In this document: positions 10,393 to 56,097 of the stretch, in pieces | Numbering within the stretch: position 1 is the first letter of the stretch | Layout: each line of letters opens with the position of its first letter | Source: Methanothermobacter sp. MT-2 | Lineage (GTDB): Archaea; Methanobacteriota; Methanobacteria; Methanobacteriales; DSM-23052 | NCBI GenBank assembly: GCA_003584625.1 | Contig: AP017647.1 | Coordinates: forward strand, 1,226,603 to 1,290,602 | Direction: 5' to 3' | DNA: 64,000 nucleotides | Program-made: the position numbers and the translations under genes | Notes under the pieces: model-generated | Database searches by the model: none | What the model saw: the letters and a program-made list of their open reading frames with translations, nothing else | What the model was told of the DNA's origin: nothing

Positions 10393-10983
10393 ATGGAAGA
10401 ATATGCCATTATCCTAGACTATCTCCCCCTAGGATACGTGGAAGAAGGCCTAGGCGGCTTCAAAAGAAAACCAGTAGCCCAGGCCATAGGTAAAGACAAC
10501 TTCACACTCCTAGAATTAACACCAAAACCCGGAGTAGACCTTGAAATCCACGAAGAAGTCTATATAGGGAAAGGTAAAAGAGATAAGATAGCTAGGATAA
10601 ACAGGCGACTACGCCACAACGAACTAACAGCAACAGCAAGGGTTGAACTACCCTATGTCATCGAAGAAATCATAAGATCAAAGGAGGAAAAATTCATCAA
10701 ATTCTTTAACGAAGCAGGACCCATAACCACGAGACTCCACCAACTAGAATTGTTGCCAGGTATCGGTAAAAAGCACATGTGGGACATCCTCAAAGCACGT
10801 GAAGAGAAAAAGTTCGAAAGCTTTGAGGATATTAAAAAGAGGGTTCCCATGCTAGCAGACCCAGTTAAATTACTAGTTAAAAGGGTCTTAATGGAATTGG
10901 ACGTTGACAAGGCAAAACGGGGTAAACGAAAATATGTACTTTTCACAAGGCCGCCTAGACGAAGAGAAAGGCCGAAAAAATAA
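10393..10983 (+). CDS. DUF655 family RNA-binding-like protein
   Basis: A roughly 196-residue DUF655 protein. An OB-like N-terminal part (EEYAIILDYLPLGYVEEG and KPVAQAIGKDNFTLLEL) is followed by a helix-hairpin-helix segment (LELLPGIGKKHMWDILKARE at about 116-135) and a very basic tail (TRPPRRRERPKK). The fold suggests nucleic-acid binding in translation or tRNA metabolism, but no activity is established. I prefer ATG 10393 over the upstream TTG at 10384. It lies between rpo4 and rsmA and its stop is one base from the rsmA start. Confidence 0.88.
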   Translation: MEEYAIILDYLPLGYVEEGLGGFKRKPVAQAIGKDNFTLLELTPKPGVDLEIHEEVYIGKGKRDKIARINRRLRHNELTATARVELPYVIEEIIRSKEEKFIKFFNEAGPITTRLHQLELLPGIGKKHMWDILKAREEKKFESFEDIKKRVPMLADPVKLLVKRVLMELDVDKAKRGKRKYVLFTRPPRRRERPKK

Positions 10984-10984
10984 A

Positions 10985-11818
10985 ATGAGACTTGATTCGC
11001 TAGCAACTGAAACCAAAAGAATCTTAAAAAAATATAATCTACAATTAAATAAGAGGTTAGGTCAACATTACCTCATCGATGATTCTAAAAGGCATGAAAT
11101 TTTATCATATGCCAATTTGAAGGATGATGACATTGTATTGGAGATCGGTCCAGGGATTGGAACTCTCACAATCCCCCTAGCCTCCAAAGCAGGGAAAGTT
11201 ATAGCAATCGAAAAGGATAAAAGGATCGCCAGCATATTAAAAAAGAGACTAAATGGTTATGATAATGTTGAGCTGATCATTGGCGACGCCCTGAAAATAA
11301 AATTCCCAGAATTTAACAAGATAGTATCCAACCTACCATATAAAATATCCTCACCCATAACCTTCAAGTTCCTTGAATATGATTTTGATTTCGGCATTTT
11401 AATGTATCAGCGAGAATTTGCAGAAAGAATGATAGCCAAACCAGGGACTAGGGACTATTCACGCCTTTCAGTGGCTTTATATTTCATGGCGGACATTGAG
11501 ATCATAGATTATATTCCAAGGTGGGCTTTTCTACCCCCACCAAAGGTTGAATCTGCTATTGTTAAATTAACTCCCAAGGGAAAAATTAATGGGATCTTTG
11601 AAAGGACTTGCAGAGCCCTATTCCAACATAAAAAGAAAAAGGCAAAGAATGCTCTCATCGAATCATTCCATGAAATCAGTAACAAAGCAGATCCAAAAGA
11701 AGTAGTTGAGTTCATAGATCCTATCTTATTGGAAAAGCGAGTTTTCACTTTGGATCCCCTGGAGATACTTAGAATTTCAAATGAACTTAAAGAGGCGATT
11801 TCCAGGGTATCATCATAG
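10985..11818 (+). CDS. rsmA: 16S rRNA dimethyladenosine transferase RsmA/KsgA
   Basis: A 277-residue methyltransferase that dimethylates two adjacent adenosines in the 3' hairpin of 16S rRNA. It begins MRLDSLATETKRILKKYN. Motifs follow in order: LGQHYLIDD, SAM-binding VLEIGPGIGTLTIPL, IGDALK, and catalytic SNLPYKISSPITFKFL. The C-terminal RNA-binding domain contains FLPPPKVESAIVKL. The frame is open further upstream inside DUF655, but ATG 10985 gives the family's normal N-terminus and is one base after the DUF655 stop. Confidence 0.96.
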   Translation: MRLDSLATETKRILKKYNLQLNKRLGQHYLIDDSKRHEILSYANLKDDDIVLEIGPGIGTLTIPLASKAGKVIAIEKDKRIASILKKRLNGYDNVELIIGDALKIKFPEFNKIVSNLPYKISSPITFKFLEYDFDFGILMYQREFAERMIAKPGTRDYSRLSVALYFMADIEIIDYIPRWAFLPPPKVESAIVKLTPKGKINGIFERTCRALFQHKKKKAKNALIESFHEISNKADPKEVVEFIDPILLEKRVFTLDPLEILRISNELKEAISRVSS

Positions 11819-20887: not shown

Positions 20888-21592
20888 TTACTTTCTGAAT
20901 TTTATAATTGTCGTTGAAAGGTAATTTCCATTCTTCATGAATCCCTCTCGGATCGTCTCATCTTTCATGCTACAATTTTGGATGGAAACTATCTTCTTCT
21001 CCCGCGGATCATCACCTATTATATCTCTTATTTCACTTCCAGATCTTGGACTCTTCATTATAATACAAGTATCTACATAGGATGCTATTTTCTTAAACCT
21101 TTCATCAACCCGTGGAACCACTACCAGTATCTCATCACCTTCTACAAGTGTCATGGAAGCGCTGGCAGCACAACCTGTAAATGATGTCACCCCAGGCACC
21201 ATCTCAACCTCGAAACCAAGACCTTCTATACGCTCTTGAAGATAAGAAAACGTACTATACAATGAAGGATCACCAAGTGTCACAAACGCCACATCATAGC
21301 CCTTTTCTATTTCATCGGCAACAAGTTTGGCAGCCTCATCCCAGTGCCATTCAAGCTCTTTAATATCCCTCGTCATAGGGAATACTGGCTCAATCAACCT
21401 GTAATTGTCCCTACTAGCAAGGATATCCTTGATGATTGAAAGGGCTCTACTTGGTTTATTCCTGGAAGATCTTGGCGCGCAGATTACAGGCACATCTTTT
21501 ATAATCTTAACAGCTTTGAGTGTGAGAAGTTCGCTGTCACCTGGCCCGACACCAACACCAATAAGCTTTCCTTCACCCAATCTAAACACCAA
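20888..21592 (-). CDS. cbiL: Cobalt-factor II C20-methyltransferase (CbiL-like)
   Basis: A 234-residue SAM-dependent tetrapyrrole methylase that adds the C20 methyl in anaerobic cobamide synthesis. LIGVGVGPGDSELLTLKAV, the VAFVTLGDPSLYSTF block (about 93-107) and VEMVPGVTSFTGCAA (about 120-134) are family motifs. The start is uncertain: TTG 21592 or the in-frame TTG 21580, which has GGTGT upstream. Other methylases of this superfamily are similar, but GDPSLYSTF with PGVTSFTGCAA fits CbiL/CobI best. It stands alone between acr3 and a divergent helicase gene. Confidence 0.88.
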   Translation of the reverse strand: MVFRLGEGKLIGVGVGPGDSELLTLKAVKIIKDVPVICAPRSSRNKPSRALSIIKDILASRDNYRLIEPVFPMTRDIKELEWHWDEAAKLVADEIEKGYDVAFVTLGDPSLYSTFSYLQERIEGLGFEVEMVPGVTSFTGCAASASMTLVEGDEILVVVPRVDERFKKIASYVDTCIIMKSPRSGSEIRDIIGDDPREKKIVSIQNCSMKDETIREGFMKNGNYLSTTIIKFRK

Positions 21593-21644: not shown

Positions 21645-23363
21645 ATGAAAGAGACCATTATATGCCCTAAATGTGGGATGTTAAAGAAAAACTGCATATG
21701 TAAAGGGGGGCTAATATTCTCCGATGAAATCCAAAAAAGAAATCTTAAAAAAGAACATCCACACATCCCTGATAAGATCATAGAAAATTTCCCGTTTCCA
21801 CGACCAAGACCAGGCCAATTAGATATAATAAATGACATCTACGAGGCCATAGAAGAAGGCTACAAATATATTATATTAGAAGCCGGGACTGGAACAGGAA
21901 AATCAGCGATAGCAATAACCCTTGCGCGGATATACCAACCAGCGTATATCCTCACAATGACAAAACAACTCCAGGATCAATATGCCAGGGAATTTAGGAT
22001 CCCAACTGTCAAGGGACGGTCAAATTTTTATTGTAAAAGTGACGATTTTGAATCTACCTGCGACATTGGAGTGTGCCAGACCACACCATCATCTGAGAAT
22101 TTCCAATGCCCTTATGGTGTCAGTCGCGGTGAAACACTATTCTTCAAGGAAGCTTTCAAGGATTCTCATGGGAACAAAATCTATTTCAAGTCAAGGGAAC
22201 ATTGCCAGTATTGGGAACAAAAAGCCCATGGAATAAACAGTCCCATAACCCTCATAAACTATGATTACGCCTTCCTAGAATTCAATTATGTCGGCCACTT
22301 CGGAAAAAGGAAATTAATGGTATTAGATGAAGCCCATAATATAGAAAACAAACTCATGCAAAGACTCGAGGTTAATCTCTCCAATAAAAGGTTGGAAAAG
22401 GATATAAAAAAGAGAATACCCGCTGAGATGTTCGAGGAAGATGATCCCAAAGAGTGGATACTTCCAATCGATGCAATATCCCAGGATTACAAGGATCTTG
22501 ACAAGAGCCAGATGTCTAAAAGGCGAGCTAATAGGATGAAAAGGATGATAAAACGCCTAGATGAACTTAAAAAGAATCTGGAGAAAGAACCTGAAAATTG
22601 GGTTATCAACACAAACCATGAAAAGGTATCCTTCAAGCCACTTCAAGTCGATAAATATGCTCCCCGTTATCTTTTTTCCCATGCTGACATATGCTTGTTT
22701 ATGAGTGCAACAATACTCTCAGATAGGATGTTCTGCAAATGGCTCGGCATAAACCCTGAAGAATCATTCTTTTTGAAAGTTGACAGTCCATTCCCTGCCT
22801 CTAGACGGCCAATAGAATTAAAACTTATCGGGAGAATGTCAAAAAATAGGATAAAGGACACAGCACCAAAAACAATCCCCATATTAAAAAGGATATTAGA
22901 AAGGCACAAGTATGATAAAGGACTTATACACACTCATAATTACCGCTGCCAGAAATTCATATTAAAGAATATCCCTGATGATCGCCTTATAGGACATAAA
23001 ATTCACAATCGCGAAGAGATGTTAAAATATTTTGAAGAAAGTGAAAAACCTCTTGTACTCGTAAGTCCATCAATGAGCGAAGGCGTTGACTTACCCTATG
23101 ACAAATGCAGATTCCAAGTAATTTACAAGATACCATTCCCTTATCTCGGTGACAAGCAAGTTAACATGCGCCAAAAAAGGGACAAGAAATGGTATGCTTA
23201 CAAGACTGTCATGACCTTAATGCAAGCCTACGGAAGAGGTATGCGCGCCCACGACGATGAATGTTACACCTACATCCTAGATGCAAATATAACAATGCTA
23301 TTCAGAAGCCCATTATACCGCTCGCTCTTGCCACAATTCTTCAAAGAAGCCATAATAGAATAA
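21645..23363 (+). CDS. XPD/DinG-like Fe-S helicase with N-terminal zinc knuckle
   Basis: A 572-residue superfamily 2 helicase. An N-terminal CPKC...CIC element (Cys7, 10, 17, 19) is followed by Walker [17 protein letters not shown] (about 77-92). A four-cysteine Fe-S insert between motifs I and II includes [17 protein letters not shown] and later cysteines. Then come the DEAH box VLDEAHNIE and motif [22 protein letters not shown]. It probably unwinds DNA 5' to 3' in repair. Shorter than eukaryotic XPD. No Shine-Dalgarno site precedes ATG 21645; TATATAT at 21613-21620 places the transcription start at the ATG, so it is likely leaderless. Confidence 0.9.
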
Positions 23364-23430: not shown

Positions 23431-26256
23431 TTAAACTTTGAAGCCGCCTTTCAGGAACCCGAATATTGCCAAGCCAACTAGTATAATGCCTCCGATAACC
23501 CCATAGATGTACCATCCAGCACCCGTTGACTTAGTACCTGGAGAAGCCCTTGTAACCTCATAAGCCTTGCCCTGTCCACTTCCAGGACCGGAAGCAGCAG
23601 CTGAAACACTAGTGGCGCCTGAAACAGCACCCACAAAGGAACCAACGAAACCAGGAAAAACACCACCAGAAGTACTTGAACCACCAGGAACACCAGGAAC
23701 ACCTGGAGTACCCGGAGTACCCGGAACACCTGGAGCGCCTGGAACACCTGGCACGCCGGGAGTGCCTGGAACGCTTGGTATTAGATCAGAGAGTTGACGA
23801 GCTGGTAATCCTATAATGTATTGGATGGCATTGCCTGAAGGTGAACCGGCAGCGCCTGAAAGTATGGAGTTCAATTCGTCTTTTGTAATATATTTTACTT
23901 GTGCTTCATTAGCTACTATGTATGGTGAACGCACACCGGTAGGTTCTTTTCCCTTGTACCAGTCTATATAAGCTCTAAGACCATTTGCCCCACTTTCGAA
24001 GCCTGGCCCTTTGTATGTGATTATCACTGCTTTTCCTATGTTTAATTTTTCATCCCAGATTATTAGTATGCCTTCCATTTGTCCGCCTTCAACGGAAGAT
24101 GATCTTGTATTAAGTAGTCTTTGGTTGTAGTATGTTCCTTGTCCTGGTGATACACCTAGGAGTAATAGTAGTCCATCATCTTTGCAATAGTCTGTTGTTG
24201 TTACATAGATGTACTTTTCATTTTCTCCTCTTGGATAATTTTCGTATATGTAGTCTGCTATGAGATATGACGGTGATACTCCTGGACAGACATGGTTATG
24301 GAATAGATAGACCATTAGCATGTCAAATGGTGGATCATAGGACCATGCGTTTGCAATTGTAACTATGCCATTCCAGTTTTTAAACACCCTGGACACTGTT
24401 GGGTTAGTGTAATTCCATCCAGCTCCTATATCATATACCGGTCCTCTGGTATCGTTTGATATTATGAATCCGCTGATTGGATCATAGATTAGTTGTACAG
24501 CATAGAGTATCTTGTCTTCTTCTGTGATGTTAAATGAGAATTTTCCAAATCCTCCAGGCTTGCCTATGATATTTGTAGCGTAGCTTCCGTCTTTTAATAT
24601 GAATGTGAACCATAGTTGACTCCAAAGTGCACTGTGGACTGGTAGTAATGTTTTTCGGCTTAATCTTGACCCTAGCATTTCATAGATTCCGTCCCATATT
24701 GGACTTGTATCTTGGCCGTTTAGGCGTGCGTAGCCTGCTGATGTTAACACGAGGAGTTCAAGGTTGTCTTTTTCTAGTTGTATGCTTGCTTGTTTTAATA
24801 ATTCTTTTGCTATGTTGGCGGCTTCGATACCTATTCCTTTTAGTTGGTCATATGTTAAGTTGCCTTTTGTGTATGTTTTATTTTCTGGTGTTGCATTTAC
24901 AAGGTTGCTCTGGCTTAGGATGTATTCCATGTCCAGTCCATGGGCGTCTTGGACTGTTGTGCTTCCCACTCCACCTGCAAGGTAATTGACTTGTTCTTCT
25001 GTGAGGTTGTCGAACGTGTAGAGTATTTTTACTAGTGATTCTGGGTTTGTTATTAGTTTTTGGACTGCCCATGCGTTGAATTTTAGTTCTGTTACTGTGT
25101 CTTCTTCTACTGTTGCATTTGTTTCTCTTTTGAATTGTTCTGTTAATTCTGTCCAGTTGTATGTCATGATAATGAGTGTTCCTTTTTGTGTGTTTGAGTT
25201 CCAGCGTATGAATCCTACCATGTTGGGATCGTCTGTGGTGTTGTATCCAACATATGCTCTTTTCCCTGGAGTTGCATCCATTGCATATACGAAGACGTCA
25301 TCGTCAGATCCGCCAGGAACTCCAATAACTATATAGCTAGTCGATTCAGCTCCTCCCGTACCTGTGCTTGGCGGATAGTATTTGAGTAGTGTTTCTATCA
25401 TTGCGTAGCCGCTTATTGTTCCGAGGCATACGTGTCCGTGGAATGCTGCTTCTCTTAGTATGTCTGCTGGTAGTCCTAGTGCCCAGGCGTTGGCTAGGCT
25501 TGCTATTGGGAATGTGTCGTTTCCTAGTTTTTGGGTGAGGTTGTTCCATTGTGCTCGTGTCATGTTCTGGGAGATTGTTCCAATGTAAGTTGGTGTTAGA
25601 CTGGCGTTTTTGAAGTATGCTAGGATTAGGTCGTTTCCTTTTTTGGTTATGAATGCGAAGTCTAATGTGTCTAGTCTTGTTTTTCTGAGTAGTAGTAGGT
25701 TGCCTTTACCAAAGCTTATGGTTCCATTTGCTTGGTTGAGTATGCCCTCGAGTACGTCTTCTGATGTGTTGTTTTTGTAGTATGCGCTGCCTGCTGTTGT
25801 TATTACTAGGATTTGTCCTGTTTTAGTGAAGTTTAGGATCTGGTCTGCTTTTTGTGTTATTTCTCTCCCTATTTTGTAGGCTTCTGTGGCTTGTAGTGTT
25901 ATTTGTAGGTGTGCGTAGTATTTTGGGTCTTCTGGGTTGGTTGGGTTTTTGGTTAGTGTGAGTTCTTGTGTTTTTGTTTGGTATCCTGGTGCTTTTATTG
26001 TTATGTTGAATTTTGTTTCTGGTTGTGGGTGTTGGAATGTTATTTTTGTTATGTTGGCTGCTGGGTCGAATATTTTTTGATAGTTTATTGGTCCGTTGGA
26101 GTCTGTCAATTCTATTGTTGGGTTTATTTGATCTTCTGGGTATTCGTAGTTTACTTTTATGCCTATTTCACATGTGCTGTTTTCAGCGGCCGAAACCGCG
26201 CCCATAGAAACCATGAAAACCACTAGGAACAGTAGGATCATGATATTCCCTCGCAA
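23431..26256 (-). CDS. Secreted membrane-anchored protein with two FmdE-type domains and a collagen-like stalk
   Basis: A 941-residue surface protein. A signal peptide (hydrophobic 5-22, then SAAEN) is followed by an Ig-like beta domain (about 25-120). Two homologous large units follow, each with a beta region (VITTAGSAYY and VLTSAGYARL) and an FmdE core: FHGHVCLGTISGYA at about 272-285 and FHNHVCPGVSPSYL at about 652-665. Residues 831-859 are nine Gly-X-Pro triplets. A Gly/Ser/Ala-rich spacer, a transmembrane helix (IYGVIGGIILVGLAIFGFL) and a short basic tail end the protein. Cytoplasmic FmdE proteins are linked to formylmethanofuran dehydrogenase; what a secreted double version does is unknown. 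The His-x-Cys core in each unit suggests metal binding outside the cell. Confidence 0.88.
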   Translation of the reverse strand: MRGNIMILLFLVVFMVSMGAVSAAENSTCEIGIKVNYEYPEDQINPTIELTDSNGPINYQKIFDPAANITKITFQHPQPETKFNITIKAPGYQTKTQELTLTKNPTNPEDPKYYAHLQITLQATEAYKIGREITQKADQILNFTKTGQILVITTAGSAYYKNNTSEDVLEGILNQANGTISFGKGNLLLLRKTRLDTLDFAFITKKGNDLILAYFKNASLTPTYIGTISQNMTRAQWNNLTQKLGNDTFPIASLANAWALGLPADILREAAFHGHVCLGTISGYAMIETLLKYYPPSTGTGGAESTSYIVIGVPGGSDDDVFVYAMDATPGKRAYVGYNTTDDPNMVGFIRWNSNTQKGTLIIMTYNWTELTEQFKRETNATVEEDTVTELKFNAWAVQKLITNPESLVKILYTFDNLTEEQVNYLAGGVGSTTVQDAHGLDMEYILSQSNLVNATPENKTYTKGNLTYDQLKGIGIEAANIAKELLKQASIQLEKDNLELLVLTSAGYARLNGQDTSPIWDGIYEMLGSRLSRKTLLPVHSALWSQLWFTFILKDGSYATNIIGKPGGFGKFSFNITEEDKILYAVQLIYDPISGFIISNDTRGPVYDIGAGWNYTNPTVSRVFKNWNGIVTIANAWSYDPPFDMLMVYLFHNHVCPGVSPSYLIADYIYENYPRGENEKYIYVTTTDYCKDDGLLLLLGVSPGQGTYYNQRLLNTRSSSVEGGQMEGILIIWDEKLNIGKAVIITYKGPGFESGANGLRAYIDWYKGKEPTGVRSPYIVANEAQVKYITKDELNSILSGAAGSPSGNAIQYIIGLPARQLSDLIPSVPGTPGVPGVPGAPGVPGTPGTPGVPGVPGGSSTSGGVFPGFVGSFVGAVSGATSVSAAASGPGSGQGKAYEVTRASPGTKSTGAGWYIYGVIGGIILVGLAIFGFLKGGFKV
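23681..23769 (-). repeat. Collagen-like Gly-X-Pro coding repeat
   Basis: A 9-base-unit repetitive stretch encoding nine consecutive G-(T/V/A)-P triplets between the second FmdE unit and the membrane anchor. Codons vary at third positions (GGA/GGC/GGT, CCA/CCT/CCC/CCG), so the protein pattern, not the DNA, seems to be selected. Confidence 0.9.
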
Positions 26257-26401
26257 TTTAATTCCACCTCCCTATTTTCTAATCACACAAAAAATTATAC
26301 CATCATAATAATATATAAACATATATTATTACACTTTCCCGCCAAATTTAAATACAAAGTAATAACAAAGTTTTTGTAGAGTCTATTGAAAATAGATTGG
26401 A

Positions 26402-26898
26402 GTGATAATAAATAAGATATTGCTAATTTTCATGGTCATTCTTGTCCAAGGACAGCGATTGGATTCAAAATTGGTGAAAATTGTAACTGAGAACTTTGAA
26501 AGATCTGAAGATTGGGGGGAGATCGTTGTAGAAAACAGTTACTTAGATGCAATACAATTCAGGACCAGATGCAAATTCAGGCAAAGAAAACCTACTATTC
26601 AAAGATCATGGGAAACATGTCTACAGCCTCATAGATCGAAGAACAAGAAAAAGTATCAGAACATGCTTAAATAAAAGCATAAAAAGAATTAATGGACAAA
26701 TTCAAAAAACAAGAGGGAAGAATTACCCGAAAAAAATCCTTGAAATGGATCCCTATGAATTTTTCACAGTCAGAAAAGTGAAGATGAAACCCCAAAAAAA
26801 GCAAGGATCTACAATTCATTAAAATGCGCAGAATGCAACGAATTAGTAGCAGAACACCACACAATGACAAAAAAATGGCAGAATATGTATACTTGCTC
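26402..26898 (+). pseudogene. FmdE-family protein, multiply frameshifted
   Basis: No single frame is open, but pieces of one FmdE protein follow each other in three frames. FHGHSCPRTAIGFKIGE (26428-26478) ends in a stop. The next frame gives NFERSEDWGEIVVEN...DAIQ. A third gives NSGKENLLFKDHGKHVY (26573-26626 region). The end gives KCAECNELVAEH (26822-26857) and a last cysteine in YTC, the zinc-ribbon tail of FmdE. At least three indels separate them. It lies head-to-head with the intact double-FmdE surface gene. This is a decayed gene rather than sequencing noise, because several lesions and lost residues are spread over the whole length. Confidence 0.75.
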
Positions 26899-54708: not shown

Positions 54709-56097
54709 TTAAGATGAAAGGATTGTATTTATTGTTACAGAATTTGGTAGTTTTCCGTTGGTGTTGTAGAAGTTTATTATTTTGGCGTAGGTGTAGATCA
54801 GGCTTGGATAGTTTATTTTTCCTATTGTTGTGGTGGCATAATTTGGCGATCTTCCATTGGTTTCCATGTATTTTTTGATGTTTTGTGCTACCTGTAGGTA
54901 TGTTGTTTTTGTGAGTGTTCCGGTTGCTGTGATTGTCAGTGGATTAGTTGGTGGTTTGTAATTGTTTATGGTTACATTCATCTTCTTGTTATCGTTGAGG
55001 TTTATTACTGTGGTGGAGGCGGCATATAGGTAATCGTTTAATGTTACATTTTTATTGTTTACCGTGATTTGGGAGGGTATTTTGCCTGTTTTTACTGTCT
55101 GATCCACTATAGTCCCAGAAGTAGCGCATATTTCATTATATGTTAATTTTGATGAAATTGTGGCGATTTTGGTAAGTGTTACATTACCAAGAAGTTTTTT
55201 TGTAGGTATCTTAGGTAATGATGATGCGCTTATAAATTTTCCAAGGAATACAATATTATCAGGATTTCCTCTTTTTCTGCCTATGAGTCCTCCGCCATCA
55301 AATGTCGCATAAATTTTTACAGATGTTGAATTTTCTCCGACAATTGTGTCATATACAATTATGTTGCGTCTGTTTAATCCCCAGTAATCGTTTCCTGCAA
55401 TATATACAGCTGCTGTTACTGGATCTGATCCCCATTTTGAATATAAACCTTCTCTGTAATAACTTGGACTATTAGGGACACATATATAGTCACCAGGATT
55501 TAAGTGGAATACATTCACCCTCGAAGAACCGCCATAATATATTGCAACACCCACATCTCCATTAGGGCTTCTGATAACAAAGTGACCTAATCCAATTTGT
55601 TTCAAAAGACTATAAACCCTGTTAATATCTGTATTGATAATTTTCCCCTTCATAACTATTTCGCCAGCTATTTTCTCAATAGCCTTATTGACAGAGGGTA
55701 CATCAGGGCCCCCGGTTCCCATCATCCAGCCCCCATCCGATATTATTGTATGGAAAAAATAGCCATTATTTGTCTTGTACTCTTTGATGGTTTCGTGTCC
55801 ATACCAATTTATTTTTTCGATGTATTGAGTGGCAGCATAGGTTGAGTCTCTTCTAAAGGCAAATATAGCGCTTGTATTATTCACATTTACGATTACAGAA
55901 CAACATCCAGAATCAATTTTTTTATTTGATAAATATTCTATATTCCAATCCTTTGAACCTCTATCTTTACATATGGTGGTATTTCCACATTTATGGGCGG
56001 ACCAGCCAACATGAACTGTCTGGGCATGAACTGTCTGGGCCGCTAAAAATACTACAATAACTATATAAATATAAAAATAAGCGTGTTTTGATTTCAT
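54709..56097 (-). CDS. Secreted protein with pseudomurein-binding repeats
   Basis: A 462-residue exported protein. The signal peptide is [18 protein letters not shown]. The N-terminal body (about 35-300) contains cysteines ([13 protein letters not shown]) and a predicted beta-rich domain with [19 protein letters not shown]. The C-terminus has pseudomurein-binding repeats: [19 protein letters not shown] and the tandem block [49 protein letters not shown]. It should attach to the pseudomurein wall. The N-terminal module resembles DUF3344/transglutaminase-associated wall proteins only weakly, so its activity is not assigned. Confidence 0.85.
56011..56040. repeat. Exact 15-bp tandem duplication in a signal-peptide region
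   Basis: Two adjacent identical 15-base units (ATGAACTGTCTGGGC on the plus strand) encode AQTVH twice in the minus-strand protein, right at the expected signal-peptidase site. It looks like a recent slippage duplication and is harmless to the frame. Confidence 0.95.

Follow-up and report, generated by a model that had tools for sequence, protein, structure and literature searches.

A double-FmdE surface protein of Methanobacteria, a candidate for transition-metal capture

The function of the FmdE domain is unknown. Its crystal structures hold a metal, Zn or mixed Zn/Ni, through the two histidines and one cysteine of an FHGHxC motif and a further cysteine about 40 residues on; the authors of these structures suspected metal transport (PMC2954224). 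In Porphyromonas, the iron-regulated hmuYRSTUV cluster ends with four genes, for a CobN, a permease-like, a MotA/TolQ/ExbB and a DUF2149 protein (PMC10434189; PMC13227078), and membrane-anchored CobN-like proteins of Bacteroides take part in heme iron use (PMC6460266). In an inventory drawn up in 2011 for the Methanothermobacter model species, the identity of the Ni2+ transporter was uncertain, and we found no surface metal-binding protein named there (PMC3087415).

Here we analyze a double-FmdE protein encoded in a 64,000-nucleotide stretch of Methanothermobacter sp. MT-2 DNA (the window). We propose, with a probability of roughly 0.6, that it is a membrane-anchored surface protein that captures transition metals via its paired FmdE domains and forms the outermost part of metal acquisition in Methanobacteria. 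What is new here is the genome context of the family; a search of the open-access literature found no paper on an operon of surface FmdE with CbiM and CobN-like genes.

Architecture and ligand residues of the protein

The ORF is present at the coordinates given by an earlier, sequence-only reading of this DNA, starts with TTG behind GGAGGTG and encodes 941 residues. Its domain order is a hydrophobic signal, a beta-sandwich, two units of alpha/beta domain plus FmdE, nine Gly-X-Pro triplets and a C-terminal TM helix. The features, all on the minus strand, are as follows:

23431..26256, minus: surface double-FmdE protein, 941 aa (ORF, Pfam, hydropathy)
26188..26256, minus: predicted N-terminal hydrophobic signal, residues ~1-23, ending ...AVSAA/ENST (hydropathy; recurs in homologs)
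25894..26178, minus: N-terminal beta-sandwich (Ig/transthyretin-like) domain, residues ~27-121 (AF2 secondary structure; weak Foldseek matches)
25492..25884, minus: alpha/beta companion domain, copy 1, residues ~125-255 (half-versus-half alignment, AF2)
25036..25443, minus: FmdE domain, copy 1, residues 272-407 (Pfam)
25426..25440, minus: HGHVC of copy 1, with H273, H275 and C277; fourth ligand position S317 (homolog alignment; ligand set from PMC2954224)
24382..24864, minus: alpha/beta companion domain, copy 2, residues ~465-625 (half-versus-half alignment, AF2)
23887..24339, minus: FmdE domain, copy 2, residues ~640-790 (profile search of genome, half-model, Foldseek)
24286..24300, minus: HNHVC of copy 2, with H653, H655 and C657 (homolog alignment)
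24184..24186, minus: C691, fourth ligand of copy 2, invariant (homolog alignment)
23686..23766, minus: nine Gly-X-Pro triplets, residues 831-857, genus-specific linker (triplet count)
23554..23568, minus: KAYEV motif ahead of the TM helix, common to CobN-like surface proteins (motif comparison)
23449..23514, minus: predicted C-terminal TM helix, residues ~915-936 (hydropathy)

Hydropathy marks residues 5-23 (mean KD 2.64) and residues 917-935 (KD 2.44, followed by a short basic tail), with 20 NxS/T sequons between the signal and the TM segment. Both hydrophobic segments recur in homologs, in support of the signal peptide and TM anchor of the sequence-only reading, and together with the hydropathy this recurrence predicts a secreted protein held by its C-terminal helix. 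The internal duplication that it had also claimed is confirmed by BLASTP of one half against the other (E 5e-10, 213 aa, 24% identity); the repeat unit is an alpha/beta companion domain ahead of each FmdE domain.

By score and by fold, the protein belongs to PF02663. The Pfam FmdE model matches the ORF twice, with 91.8 bits against a cut-off of 22.9, and in a search of the genome each copy alone exceeds that cut-off (52.8 and 44.1 bits). Both HxHxC cores, H273/H275/C277 and H653/H655/C657, are invariant among 28 aligned homologs, so the two cores read from the translation stand, and these ligands are not lost in those 28 homologs. The same reading's view of the copies as probable metal- or ligand-binding units holds insofar as both keep HxHxC, but the two sites are not equivalent. 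In all 28 aligned homologs, copy 2 has a fourth cysteine (C691, in CxxD), whereas copy 1 has S317 (in SxxD) in place of the fourth-ligand Cys. As judged from the alignment, all four ligands are in place in copy 2, whereas copy 1 deviates from this set in a fixed way. The two FmdE copies in one chain could form an intramolecular pseudo-dimer.

AlphaFold modelled residues 25-830, using 39 homologs, with a mean pLDDT of 88.4 and a pTM of 0.90, and in this model the ectodomain is predicted to be one compact unit. Foldseek gave mixed beta-sandwich matches and a weaker FmdE match for the full model, and a clear FmdE match when the second half was modelled alone (pLDDT 85.7): its top three PDB matches are 2glz_A, 2glz_B and 2gvi (prob 0.99-1.00, E 2e-3 to 5e-3), and every other PDB match listed has a prob of at most 0.12. 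The N-terminal domain weakly matches carboxypeptidase D and pilin beta-sandwich domains, and searching PDB sequences with a profile gave no relative. Structure prediction, proposed earlier as a check, gives a compact ectodomain whose second half matches FmdE structures 2GLZ and 2GVI.

The longest Gly-X-Pro run is exactly nine triplets, the number originally counted, but its description as a collagen-like stalk serving as a spacer does not carry over to the family. Five genes of the genus have runs of 9, 4, 7, 4 and 2 triplets, and outside the genus the run is absent, with Asn/Ser/Gly-rich linkers in its place. Given this restriction to the genus, the spread from 2 to 9 triplets and the other linkers found elsewhere, the run reads as a genus-specific, length-variable and dispensable linker, not a defining stalk. 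The Pfam Collagen model scores 16.7 bits on the ORF, under its cut-off of 27.2, and ‘collagen-like’ is therefore a description of composition only. At this length and with such irregularity, the linker probably could not work as a collagen stalk, and we reject such a stalk as the key feature.

Family matches occur in 67 of the 151 genomes of the order and full-length members in 51 (a count of strong matches), with a further full-length member in one genome (G151) of another order in class Methanobacteria. In a scan of 84,980 species' genomes, the full-length relatives carry Methanobacteria titles, apart from a few metagenome bins labelled bacteria, which we took to be misbinned contigs. None of the 47 other FHxHxC-type ORFs among the matches listed in this pattern-limited scan has a hydrophobic stretch at the N-terminus or repeats the motif. 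The double-FmdE surface protein is a Methanobacteria-wide family. The proposed search for the architecture in other methanogens therefore finds it across the class, with the Gly-X-Pro part limited to the genus, and ‘unusual in archaea’ is right against archaea at large but not within this class, where the protein is common. There are several paralogs per genome, and one paralog group (L038, L043, L054-L056) is without both HxHxC motifs. In the window genome, a surface FmdE-like paralog without HxHxC (G000:C1:724309-726350; L038, L147) is split into two frames.

Gene neighbourhoods and the upstream palindrome

Around the gene, the window holds the following:

20888..21592, minus: CbiL, cobalt-factor II/precorrin-2 C20 methyltransferase (TIGR01467 over cut-off)
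21645..23363, plus: DinG/XPD-like helicase gene (convergent with the surface gene and retained beside its orthologs; name from sequence reading)
26305..26332, minus: promoter palindrome GTAATAATATATGTTTATATATTATTAT around the TATA-like TTTATATA (the inner 26 bp, 26306-26331, are a perfect 11-4-11 repeat)
26416..26872, plus: disrupted divergent gene for a cytosolic FmdE + zinc-finger protein (remnant with frameshifts/stops)

CbiL is linked to the window's ortholog group in eight loci, and the helicase gene is probably an incidental neighbour. The cytosolic FmdE + zinc-finger gene is intact at the same place in five loci (G001, G144, G146, G148, G149), and the window genome has an intact FmdE paralog at 756 kb. 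Since no transporter gene adjoins the surface FmdE protein in the window locus, the assignment of this copy, which lies near cbiL and the lost cytosolic FmdE gene, to cobalt/nickel handling would follow from homology. Elsewhere in the window, an ORF at 54709-56097 (minus) encodes a secreted protein whose C-terminus, by eye, resembles pseudomurein-binding repeats.

Among relatives, a gene for the cobalt/nickel transporter CbiM lies within 6 kb in 24 of 54 homolog loci, where gene density predicts 0.023 per locus (binomial 5e-25 against the density estimate, a figure that overstates certainty because related loci are not independent). The gene order in many genera is surface-FmdE, cl3, CbiM, cl2, CobN-like, DUF2162, ExbB and DUF2149, complete or partial and sometimes divergent. 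Several CbiM-bearing loci are without CobN, and 22 of the 54 loci, among them every locus of the window's ortholog group, have no core gene within 6 kb. In genomes of at least 90% completeness, CbiM genes average 3.0 per genome with the family versus 2.17 without it, and 3.0 versus 1.90 in the largest genus (p 2e-8). The small proteins cl3 and cl2 (10840-11343 and 12048-12515 in L139, and homologs), secreted or anchored and usually near CbiM, have no confident Pfam match; after the signal, cl3 starts with an AHPGHG-type sequence and cl2 with SHGVDVT, both His-bearing.

Other placements also involve metals. Directly upstream of one member (L137; G002) are TupABC-like tungstate transporter genes, whose best NCBIfam models include TupA, TupB and WtpC, under equivalog cut-offs. 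In L148, the counterpart of the window genome's split, ligand-less paralog lies next to fmdECB and molybdate transporter genes, with the ModA and FmdB/C models over cut-off. These independent placements, with CbiM, TupABC-like and fmdECB/molybdate genes, agree with metal acquisition, and give strong backing from genome context to the ‘metal capture’ suggested by the sequence-only reading, capture itself being our interpretation. We considered and rejected a role with formylmethanofuran dehydrogenase: no fmd/fwd genes were recognised near the window copy, and fmdECB is next to the ligand-less paralog only.

CobN-like, ExbB and DUF2149 genes co-occur in the relatives' loci and, together with DUF2162, at 355-362.5 kb of the window genome, a locus not linked to the window gene. 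Against PDB, the CobN-like protein of L143 scores 378 bits with the heme dechelatase HmuS and 364 with CobN, a small margin, and that of the window genome 316 and 279 bits. The C-terminal anchor of the latter is related to that of the FmdE protein. A [YF]E[VM] motif precedes the TM helix in 46 of 70 CobN-like and 7 of 11 FmdE surface proteins, versus 8 of 235 other long ORFs; it lies about 20 residues ahead of the helix (window 23554-23568; L242 3-5603; L143 1903-7026) and is possibly a sorting or anchoring signal. A further CobN-like gene (G000:C1:750890-753891; L196, L198-L202) has several in-frame stops and is apparently a pseudogene.

The palindrome recurs as GTAATA-N16..19-TATTAC, with the TATA-like sequence inside it and at most one mismatch, upstream of 39 of 67 family genes (58%) versus 8 of 298 other genes of the loci (3%), and upstream of 6 of 13 linked cbiM and 5 of 11 DUF2162 genes that have their own upstream space; the loci are related, and these figures overstate certainty. 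The obvious guess is that a repressor binds it. The exact palindrome of the window occurs once in its genome. The palindrome gave no clear sign of a genome-wide metal regulon: across 11 genomes the strict pattern was no more frequent than a reversed-pattern control, and non-family sites were not obviously beside metal genes. One non-family site (L238), read by eye, lies beside a mobB/moaA-like pair.

A model for metal capture and its rivals

Methanogens need nickel (F430, hydrogenases), cobalt (corrinoids) and tungsten or molybdenum. Relatives of the protein lie in cobalt, nickel or tungsten uptake clusters, and the protein is therefore probably part of scarce-metal collection. In the mechanism that we infer, it would be secreted and then held at the membrane by its TM helix. 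Copy 2 would bind a divalent metal at its H-H-C-C site, with Co2+ and Ni2+ as the likeliest candidates, and copy 1, with H-H-C and Ser, may be a weaker, different or transfer site. The next step would be transfer of the metal to the membrane, with CbiM from the neighbouring gene as the recipient in many relatives, and with possible help from the two small His-start proteins and from a surface chelatase of CobN/HmuS type accompanied by DUF2162, ExbB and DUF2149. The scaffold is probably re-used for different metals, because some members sit with TupABC-like genes, or with fmdECB and a molybdate transporter. Counting against the model are the window locus, where no transporter gene is adjacent, the 22 loci that have no core gene nearby, and the palindrome, which did not lead clearly to other metal genes across genomes. 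An extension that we offer only tentatively is a surface counterpart of Hmu in which environmental tetrapyrroles lose their Co, Ni or Fe to a membrane-anchored CobN/HmuS-like dechelatase and the double-FmdE protein takes up the metal and hands it on to a stand-alone CbiM, with tungstate/molybdate variants.

A related explanation is that the protein binds not an ion but a metal-bearing organic ligand, a cobamide or an F430-type or heme tetrapyrrole, as the hemophore-like partner of an Hmu-like system in which demetallation takes place outside the cell, by the CobN/HmuS-like protein. The cassette of CobN-like, DUF2162, ExbB and DUF2149 genes does parallel hmuSTUV (PMC10434189; PMC13227078), its CobN-like member scores best with HmuS, a large cleft opens at the metal site of FmdE dimers (PMC2954224), and cbiL lies near the window copy. 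However, the commonest partner, CbiM, is an ion transporter component, several CbiM loci lack CobN, and HxHxC with the fourth Cys is already a full ion site, and we consider this explanation doubtful.

It is less probable still that the FmdE domains are surface thiol, thioester or redox enzymes, with the metal serving structure or catalysis and the gene neighbourhood a sign that the protein depends on metal rather than captures it. The circularly permuted thioredoxin-like fold of the FmdE core and the unknown ligand found 1.8 A from the fourth Cys in Ta1109 (PMC2954224) would fit such an enzyme, but copy 1 lacks that Cys in every aligned homolog and we saw no redox partner genes in the homolog neighbourhoods; nothing that we found points to the surface redox function raised by the sequence-only reading. 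The least likely of these explanations is a structural envelope or adhesion protein with FmdE domains as relics. Its large size, its many sequons, the several paralogs per genome and the loss of both HxHxC motifs in one paralog group are what such a protein might display; yet the ligands are invariant across genera in the main group, the metal-transport operon and promoter element are conserved, and even the ligand-less paralog adjoins fmdECB and a molybdate transporter.

Gene order and the promoter element link this class-wide surface family to CbiM and the Hmu-like cassette, which makes it a testable target for FmdE function and for methanogen metal uptake.

Comparison with known systems

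The closest known proteins are the PF02663 structures 2GLZ (DSY1837), 2GVI (Ta1109) and 3D00 (SYN_00638), which have the same domain by Pfam and fold and the same HxHxC plus fourth Cys as copy 2. Known FmdE proteins are intracellular, small, dimeric and without a signal peptide, whereas here two copies lie in one secreted, anchored chain, which has an extra companion domain for each copy, no zinc finger, and Ser for Cys in copy 1.

In the CbiMNQO and NikMNQO ECF transporters the shared element is CbiM, the commonest neighbour in our clusters, with its N-terminal His motif kept. Unlike those systems, the clusters have no recognised CbiN, Q or O, and contain cl2, cl3 and surface FmdE instead. 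The TupABC/WtpABC and ModABC oxyanion transporters adjoin one member (G002) and the ligand-less paralog; they are of ABC type with their own binding protein, unlike the FmdE clusters.

The likeness to the Bacteroidota Hmu system (HmuYRSTUV) lies in the CobN/HmuS-like, ExbB, DUF2149 and permease-like genes found in one cluster. Neither HmuY nor a TonB receptor, for which a monoderm archaeon would lack the outer membrane, was seen in the methanobacterial clusters, which have the double-FmdE protein and CbiM instead. The term ‘Hmu-like’ describes a resemblance of the partners and makes no claim of membership in that system for the FmdE protein.
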